From: Tubiluchus corallicola
Lineage: Eukaryota; Priapulida; Priapulimorpha; Priapulimorphida; Tubiluchidae
Reading direction: 5' to 3'
Assembly: GCA_030141605.1 (NCBI GenBank)
Contig: JAQGDQ010000577.1
Location: 1 to 64,000, forward strand
DNA: 64,000 nt
Shown: in pieces, positions 17,301-20,300 of the stretch
Layout of the letters: every line of letters begins with the position of its first letter
Numbering within the stretch: position 1 is the first letter of the stretch
The notes under the pieces: model-generated
The model's input: the letters and a program-made list of their open reading frames with translations, nothing else
Database searches by the model: none
What the model was told of the DNA's origin: nothing
Position numbers and translations under genes: made by a program

Positions 17301-20300
17301 ACAAGCAGTTAGAAACGGTCACGCTTCTGACGTAACACACTGCAAGCACTTACTAAGTATATTGTATTTCCACTAACACACCACAAGTAATTCGCAACTG
17401 TAACATATGTTGCAATATCAGGCGCAAATAAAGGAAAAAAACACAAATAGGCTGCGGTTTTTTAATTTAATCTGTCAGGGATTTAAAAAACTATTAATTT
17501 GCTTTTCAGCCGCTAATTATACCATTTAATAAGAAAAGTTTACGTACCGGGTTGGAATTGCTGTACTACGTGGGCAACCATCTCTTTAACGTTTGTGTCA
17601 TCATCTTGAAGCAAACAATAAGCACAGTGCCATAATTCAAATGTGAGCTCTTCTGCAATAAAACATGAGAATTAAATATTATGACAAAGGTTTCCACTAT
17701 GACAAGTGTACAAATTTATAAACATAACATTTGTCACATATTGTACTACGTATTTGATTGTTTGTAATATTATGATTTAAATGGCAGTCTACTATACTAA
17801 ACTATTGCCTTTTTCTTTACTGTCACCTATAGTCATTTTTTGACTATAATTGTACAATGATTATCAGAGATTAATTTCTTTTGTTTCTAAACATTTTTCC
17901 TTTTCCTTTTCGATATTCATTAATCTGGGTGATTACATCGTTAATTTCATGGTTCAAAAAAAATTATATTAATTAACAATTTAGACTAAATTAAACTGAG
18001 AGAAACCATAACAAAGCTATCTGTAGGTAAATAATCTTTATTCTGCTATCAATGAAGCCATGTAGGCATTGGTTTTAATAGGATATTAACACGATTCTAA
18101 TAAATTTTAAAATACCTAAATTTCATGAATGAACCACTCAGTGGTGGCAAAGATTTCGTTCATTAAAAACAAAACGTTGAAAAGCGAGTATCAAATGTGA
18201 TCTTAAGCCATGGCCTGTAACGTGCATGGTTTGTACATTCCCAGATCAAGCTGACAAAATGACTATAAGTTTAAACTCTAACAGTTAAAGAATGACGACT
18301 CTGCCCCATCTTGTGGAAAAGATTCAACAGAAGACTGTACGAGATTAAATGATTGTGTGGCATATGAACTCGGGCCAACTCTGCCAGACGTGCCCAATAA
18401 CTCTATTCATAATGCATGCGTGATGGTAAGTACACAGTCTTGTGTAAGTACACAGTCCTTACTTCAAGTTTCAGCTCCAATTTTTCAGCGTCGTCTTTTA
18501 AAAGGGCATCTGTAATATACATCAGGGGGTATAGCTCAGTGGCAGCATGCTTGATTCCCACATGGAAGGTTGCAGGTTCAACTCTCGACTGAGTCAAAGT
18601 TAAGGCTAAAAAATGTTGCCGCTGCTTCTTCAATCAAGCACGCGGGTTTATCGAAGTAACACACAGGTAATAATAATCAGGACCACCTTGGAAATAGTAC
18701 TGAGGTGTTATTCCTATGTCCTAACAATATTATTAGTATCATTATTATCATTACTACTACCACTGTGATGATGATGATGATGATGATGATGACTTCCATT
18801 CTGTGGTAAAAATAGAAAAAAGTAAACAAACCCTAATGCAATATTTTGTAAAGTATGACTTATGCTGTACTAACCGAAAATACTTTGTGGGTCAATAAGC
18901 AACAGTTTTGCATGCATTGCAATCATCTGAGCTACTTCAGTTTTACAAGCCAAATTAACATTAGCAGCTTCCAGTATCCAAGTGACTAGTTTCTTCATCC
19001 ATTTAACGTCCTTTTCTGCTTTCCCAGAATCCTGTAAGAAAATGATGACGATGACGACAGTGACGATTCATATGACGGAGATGACAAAGACAACAACAAA
19101 AATGATGAGAATGATGATGACCATAACAACAATTGATACAATAACGACGATGATGATATTTTCAATAACAATGATGTGAATGATGATTTCGATGATAATG
19201 CTGATGATGACATGCACAATGCTGTTTCAAGTTGAACAAAATTTAGAATGAAATTTTCATCCATTCAATATTACCATCAATCAAATTATTTTTATAATCA
19301 CATTAATTAAGAATTTTGGTAAATATGGGGTAAGATGCTTGAGTGAAGAAACGATGAATAAATGAATTATTTAAAAGCACTCTTTATCAATAAAACCATA
19401 GCAGCACCTGAAATTCCAATACACTGTACAATTAACAAACAATGGCAAACTAAAAATAGTAAACAAAACCTTCCTAACATATAAAACACAATGTAAATGC
19501 GCCTCAGAACACATAAAACACAGACTAAACCCGCCTCAGAACACATAAAACACAGACTAAACCCGCCTTCTAACACATAAACACAGATGAAACCCGCCTA
19601 CTAAGACATAAAACACAGACTAGACCCGCCTTCTAACACATAAAACACAGACTAAACCCGCCTCATAACACATAAAACACAGACTAAACCCGCCTTCTAA
19701 CACATAAAACACAGACGAAACCCGCCTACTAACACATAAAACACAGACTAAACCCGCCTCATAGCACATAAAACACAGACTAAACCCGCCTTCTAACACA
19801 TAAAACACAAACTAAACCCGCCTTCTAACACATAAAACACAGACTAAACTTGCCTACTAAGACATAAAACACAGACTAAACCCGCCTTCTAACACATAAA
19901 AACAGACTAAACCCGCCTCATAACACATAAAAACAGACTAAACCCGCCTTATAACACATAAAACTCAAACTAAACCCGCCTCATAACACATAAAACACAA
20001 ACTAAACCCGCCTCATAACACATAAAAGACAGACTAAACCCGCCTCATAACACATAAAACACAAACTAAACCCGCCTCATAACACATAAAACACAGACTA
20101 AACCTGCCTCATAACACATAATGCGCAAACTAAACCCGCCTCATAGCACATAAAAACAGACTAAACCCACCTCAAAACACATAAAATACAAACTAAACCC
20201 GCCTCATAACACATAAAAGACAAAGCCCACCTCATTATACATAAAAGGAAGGAGCGCTGATCCTAAGCAAAGTTGTGCACTTGAAACTTCTTCAAATTTC

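Follow-up and report, generated by a model that had tools for sequence, protein, structure and literature searches.

A 32-bp minisatellite across a predicted splice donor of the THADA gene of Tubiluchus corallicola

The THADA gene and its repeat-bearing exon

The window analysed here comprises 64,000 nucleotides (nt) of contig JAQGDQ010000577.1 (positions 1 to 64,000; GenBank assembly GCA_030141605.1) from the priapulid Tubiluchus corallicola and has a G+C content of 35.0%, lower than that of the amphioxus genus Branchiostoma. Its minus strand carries a series of exons which, on the strength of domain and sequence matches, are assigned to a THADA/Trm732 gene, together with a minisatellite of 32-base-pair (bp) units that begins in the last coding bases of one of these exons, crosses the predicted splice donor and extends into the adjacent intron. 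All positions of gene and array given below refer to the minus strand.

Pfam DUF2428 (PF10350) is matched by the exons at 26997-27281 (E-value 3.8e-14) and 33868-34134 (2.5e-11), and the Trm732 TPR domain (PF25150) by the one at 41486-41722 (1.6e-7); a match to PF25151 (0.0087) lies under the cut-off of that family. When joined, the exon pieces align with the solved THADA chain of PDB entry 8y2o at 6e-30. The third block of this alignment, weak if taken alone, falls on the 469-nt exon at 21438-21906 and extends into the start of the exon that bears the array. The Pfam and PDB matches support the THADA identity proposed in the preliminary description of this DNA.

The array exon (20231-20407) measures 177 nt, starts and finishes in phase 0 and ends in LCLGSALLPFMYNE; three more coding exons come after it in the gene model. 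It has an AG acceptor, a GT donor and a frame continuous with its neighbours, and it aligns with human THADA. It would be followed by an intron of 1199 nt (19032-20230), 62% of which is array, and by exons at 18875-19031 (157 nt), 16634-16782 (149 nt) and 14323-14826, the last of which ends at a stop codon. The exons 20407-20231, 19031-18875, 16782-16634 and 14826-14323 form a single open frame with AG/GT boundaries and agreeing phases, with 269 residues encoded after the array exon. The last exon alone gave no match to PDB sequences up to E 10, so that the 3' end of the gene is predicted from the reading frame; a C-terminal piece of 339 amino acids, taken from a superseded gene model that ended at 16565 and not, as now, at 14323, had no THADA match in PDB or Pfam. 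Inspection by eye of the interval from 23911 to 21906 did not reveal the exon expected there. At the acceptor end of the host intron, about 19032-19230, a degenerate TCA/TCG trinucleotide repeat was noted by eye; with this repeat at one end and the array at the other, both ends of the intron are repeat-rich.

Dissection by unit, together with Tandem Repeats Finder, places the minisatellite at 19487-20246, with 24 units including the one at the exon end, and a decayed unit 25 at 19455-19486. Tandem Repeats Finder itself reports 19475-20222 with a period of 32, 23.5 copies and 89% matches. Unit 1 (20246-20219; 28 nt) is composed of the last 16 exon bases (20231-20246) and 12 intron bases and reads TTTTATGTATAATGAG/GTGGGCTTTGTC, the slash marking the exon-intron boundary; units 2-24 span 20218-19487 with 31-32 nt apiece, and the array consensus is TTTTATGTGTTATGAG/GCGGGTTTAGTCTGTG. 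All 20 matches to a 24-base piece of the unit, at up to 3 mismatches, lie within the array (expected 0.00), and a 21-base piece searched against viral contigs gave, as expected, no match.

Exon end and donor, TTTTATGTATAATGAG/GTGGGC, are identical to the consensus at 18 of 22 positions (14 of 16 in the exon part). The 16 exon bases preceding unit 1 match at only 3 of 16, and the likeness to the unit thus stops within the exon. Outside 19440-20280, none of the 63138 22-mers on the minus strand reaches 16 matches, the best being 15, and one of 63138 on the plus strand reaches 16 and none 17. The 14/16 match of the exon part alone is equalled by one of 63144 16-mers on the plus strand and by none of 63144 on the minus strand, or, when the unit may be rotated freely, by two of the latter; under any rotation the other 16-mers of the array exon, the last 12 overlapping ones excluded, reach at most 10 of 16. 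The preliminary description had located the array at 19497-20250, correct to about 5-40 bases, and had seen in it a 32-bp period, about 23 copies, and a first unit formed by the last 16 coding bases plus the donor, all of which is borne out here.

With the junction placed by frame and homology, the tandem unit appears to hold both exon-end and intron-start bases. This is the arrangement of the "mirages", tandem repeats across exon-intron boundaries found in the amphioxus genes Adh3, BflGb6 and BflGb9, the latter two encoding globins (PMC3087553). Among 11 THADA exon boundaries checked for other mirages (one acceptor, 24084, being placed 2 nt off), only the donor of the array exon recurs within 2 kilobases at 18 of 24 positions or more; such recurrence is also seen at 8% of 400 random centres, presumably mostly where these fall in other arrays.

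Donor copies in the array and the consequence of their use

Donor sites were scored with a 5' splice-site matrix and by the energy of their duplex with the U1 end. The donor at the exon end, GAG/GTGGGC (20225-20230), has a matrix score of 7.44 and a U1 duplex of -8.9 kcal/mol, and it is the highest of the five scored donors of the THADA gene (4.67-7.44). As donors, all nine other in-phase GT or GC dinucleotides of the array exon score negatively (range -13.0 to -1.4), and no other GT of any phase in this exon scores 4 or more. In the downstream units 2-24, AG/G is present in 23 of 23; it is continued as GC in 22 of them and as GT in one, where a mirage would be expected to show AG/GT splice signals in many of its copies, though not in all. 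This sole GT copy is that of unit 3, GAG/GTGGGT (20165-20170), with a score of 8.88 and a U1 duplex of -10.0 kcal/mol. The best GC-type copy, TAG/GCAAGT of unit 13 (19848-19853), scores 4.36 with -6.0 kcal/mol, and the remaining 21 copies score at most 3.13.

For comparison, 5000 random draws of 775 nt were taken from the minus strand, array included. Sites scoring at least as high as the exon-end donor occur in them at a mean of 0.66 per 775 nt, with 46% of the draws holding at least one; for sites at or above the score of unit 3, the mean is 0.25 and the share 19%. The array (776 nt) holds one site at or above the score of the exon-end donor and, measured against that background mean, is not enriched in strong decoys. 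It consists mostly of disarmed donor copies, without an unusual density of strong ones. The earlier designation as an array of decoy 5' splice sites is supported only in part: it may apply to the copy at 20170, which had rightly been read as GTGGGT and as better than the donor in use, and is weak for the array at large, in which GC had likewise been recognized in most units. The GCAAGT assigned to 19848 is present, but that position is its last base, and its +1 lies at 19853.

From any donor copy downstream of 20230, the reading frame would run into a TGA at 20204-20206. Translation of the exon extension gives VGFVFYVL and then the stop, 27 nt beyond the donor; an in-frame TGA had been predicted in the preliminary description for splicing at the GTGGGT unit. 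A message with such an early stop is expected to undergo nonsense-mediated decay. The contacts of human THADA with FTSJ1 (residues 1321-1449) and with tRNA (e.g., 798, 843 and 1225) named in the available text of PMC12145424, the numbering of which may differ slightly from chain positions, precede the point that would correspond to the array junction.

Origin of the array and competing explanations

The stretch of human THADA used for comparison is identical to positions 1638-1784 of the 8y2o chain. The best ungapped places in it for the 22 residues that close the array exon and for the 45 that open the next exon, at 1674 and 1696, respectively, are exactly adjacent, and 14 of 1000 shuffles score as high as the joined 67 residues. 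An alignment with MAFFT likewise leaves the junction ungapped, the nearest gap being one of 2 residues about 20 residues upstream. Relative to human THADA, the junction would thus contain no added residues. Because the exon end aligns without insertion and no other in-phase donor has a positive score, seeding of the array by the native THADA junction is the favoured of the two origins offered in the preliminary description; the other, recruitment of the exon end from the array, is disfavoured, since a recruited exon end would more likely alter the length.

Divergence from the consensus, expressed as mismatches plus gap columns, is highest in unit 1 (5+4), unit 24 (6+0) and unit 25 (6+6), followed by unit 21 (5+1) and unit 13 (5+0), and all others have at most 3 mismatches. 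To judge from these counts, homogenised inner units appear to stand between divergent cluster edges, as in a mirage. Likeness to unit 1 declines with distance over units 2-24 (Spearman -0.52, p 0.012), the p value being optimistic because neighbouring units are related. The variant AGTAG is found in units 13, 17 and 21. The patterns of divergence and likeness are those of ordinary tandem-repeat turnover.

The array is probably a mirage minisatellite that grew from the native THADA junction, with 20230 still the main donor and 20170 a minor one at most. In such a scenario, a segment of about 32 bp spanning the native exon/donor junction would have been duplicated in tandem and would have spread into the intron through slippage or unequal exchange, some of it perhaps by blocks of four units. 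The coding copy at the array edge would be held by selection, and the inner copies would have been homogenised. Splicing would most likely still occur at 20230, because 22 of the 23 downstream copies carry GC instead of GT; messages spliced at the GT copy would then be removed by nonsense-mediated decay. Several points weigh against this account. The direction of origin would follow from the comparison with human THADA, into which no outgroup enters, and each of the two peptides alone does no better against human THADA than shuffles (189 and 633 of 1000 as good), so that the case for an ungapped junction depends on the adjacency of the two and on their joint score. The mean identity between units is raised only slightly at lags of 4, 8 and 12 and not at 16 or 20; turnover in 4-unit blocks is therefore no more than suggested. 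Appreciable mis-splicing is possible, since the lone GT copy outscores the donor in use from a position just 60 nt downstream, and such sites are found in 19% of the draws.

An array that came first, as an existing intronic minisatellite supplying a new exon end and donor, would explain why the last 16 nt of the exon resemble the units, and the consensus, open in the exon frame (PFMCYE), would therefore be tolerable in an exon. This is nonetheless quite improbable, given the lack of inserted residues at the junction in comparison with human THADA and the lack of a positive-scoring in-phase donor in the exon that could be the older one. That the exon end resembles the neighbouring repeat by chance can hardly be credited. 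The unit is T/G-rich, and the match of the exon part is equalled once on the plus strand and, with any rotation, twice on the minus strand; the match including the donor, however, is adjacent to the array and nearly in register with it, and the scan of 22-mers over the whole window, with best values elsewhere of 15 (minus strand) and 16 (plus strand), makes a chance likeness improbable.

Among the functional explanations, it is unlikely that the units, chiefly the one at 20170, compete for U1 and set the THADA level via early-stop transcripts, with copy number as the tuning element. The GTGGGT copy surpasses the exon-end donor on both measures (8.88 vs 7.44; -10.0 vs -8.9 kcal/mol), the TGA follows 27 nt on, and human IFI6 reportedly uses two of its downstream repeat units as donors (available text of PMC4526556), but one site of at least the exon-end donor's score in 776 nt is near background, and amphioxus mirages are reported, in the available text of PMC3087553 and PMC3902484, not to disturb splicing. 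Conceivable, if still doubtful, is an enhancing role, in which the CGGGT of each unit would provide a G triplet recruiting U1 or hnRNP F/H-like factors downstream of the donor and strengthening the use of 20230. The array contains 21 GGG, whereas 2864 random stretches (3000 draws, 136 near the array dropped) hold 3.7 on average and never more than 13. According to the available text of PMC1779574, G triplets are known to act as enhancers when close to a donor; like CGGG and GGGT, they are enriched next to confirmed tandem donors, and these motifs can pair with U1. Use of a donor can be favoured when U1 binds downstream of it (available text of PMC5933811). These cases are human or mostly mammalian, however, and the G triplets of the array follow from the copying of one unit, which does not imply selection.

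Very unlikely, finally, is an array that keeps dormant donors in reserve, with THADA expression being lost at a rate governed by copy number and CpG decay. The GAG/GCGGGT of the unit has a CpG exactly at donor positions +2/+3, which read CG in 20, TG in one and CA in two of the 23 downstream units. One methyl-CpG transition would change a silent GC copy to GT and make it superior to the working donor, and the GT of unit 3 may have arisen in this way; array-to-junction conversion would turn the working GT into GC. Nothing decisive came from the CpG count of the array (22 against a mean of 15.6; with 18% of draws as high, it is ordinary) or from RNA folding, in which the first 331 nt of the array surpass every one of 100 dinucleotide shuffles (z -3.4), a score that may reflect mere repetition.

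Related repeats and further features of the window

The array, for which growth from the native junction is the preferred reading, is a further case of a rare but previously described kind of repeat, represented by the amphioxus mirages and the donor minisatellite of human IFI6/G1P3. Turri, Cuin and Porter reportedly described the latter in 1995 as a minisatellite of IFI6 (G1P3, 6-16) with multiple splice donors; repeat units carrying splice donors are common to it and the THADA array. Two of the downstream IFI6 units are reportedly used as donors, giving different isoforms (available text of PMC4526556), whereas in the THADA array any downstream use would meet a stop and one of 23 units has a strong donor. 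Architecture and turnover of the array are the same as those reported for amphioxus mirages; in BflGb6 the inner copies are homogenised and the edge copies left out (PMC3087553), and the edges of the THADA array are likewise divergent. Amphioxus units measure 10-160 bp, with BflGb6 haplotypes of 6 and 3 units, compared with 32 bp and about 24 copies here, and the THADA array further differs by the GC in 22 of 23 downstream donor copies and by its host gene. Additional amphioxus mirages are found in TnC and PGBD5 (available text of PMC3902484). The cases named in the available text of PMC3087553 and PMC3902484 are all from amphioxus; they vary in length, and regular splicing is reportedly undisturbed.

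Minisatellites with units averaging 30 bp are found as internal tandem repeats in human segmental duplications, where they can alter splicing if located at exon-intron boundaries (available text of PMC2812944). The number of those repeats varies between paralogs and transcript data exist for them, whereas the THADA array is known from one sequence. Judging from the available text of their descriptions, the minisatellites of DDX3Y and of earthworm metallothionein are of other kinds, and a literature search joining THADA and minisatellite returned, to judge from the listings, nothing apparently on this subject. The array could confuse RNA splicing and probably seldom does; changes in copy number might, as the preliminary description proposed, alter splicing too. 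Minisatellites that arose at splice junctions form a small group, to which the array contributes a long and well-resolved example, and it offers a clean natural test of donor choice among near-copies, 22 with GC and one with a GT that is better for U1.

Nested among the THADA exons but running in the other direction, an uninterrupted frame at 31771-32742 (plus strand) encodes a rhodopsin-family G protein-coupled receptor (Pfam 7tm_1, 1e-38). Also between THADA exons lies a 63-bp minisatellite of 24 copies (38954-40476), in which more than one reading frame is free of stops over hundreds of codons. An exon-like frame at 9060-9323 (minus strand) matches a portion of the dimerisation domain of anoctamins (1.3e-10), which would place a gene of this family, or a fragment of one, downstream of THADA. 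A weak match to the C-terminal dimerisation region of hAT transposases (43168-43437, plus strand; 0.0027) lies under the curated cut-off. Closely similar six-frame translations, compared by eye, mark a dispersed repeat, probably a mobile element, at 3738-4136 and 14815-15087 (plus strand) and 20823-21182 (minus strand). At 40747-41127, two tandem copies of 193 bp share 100% identity, owing either to duplication in the very recent past or to an artefact of the assembly.
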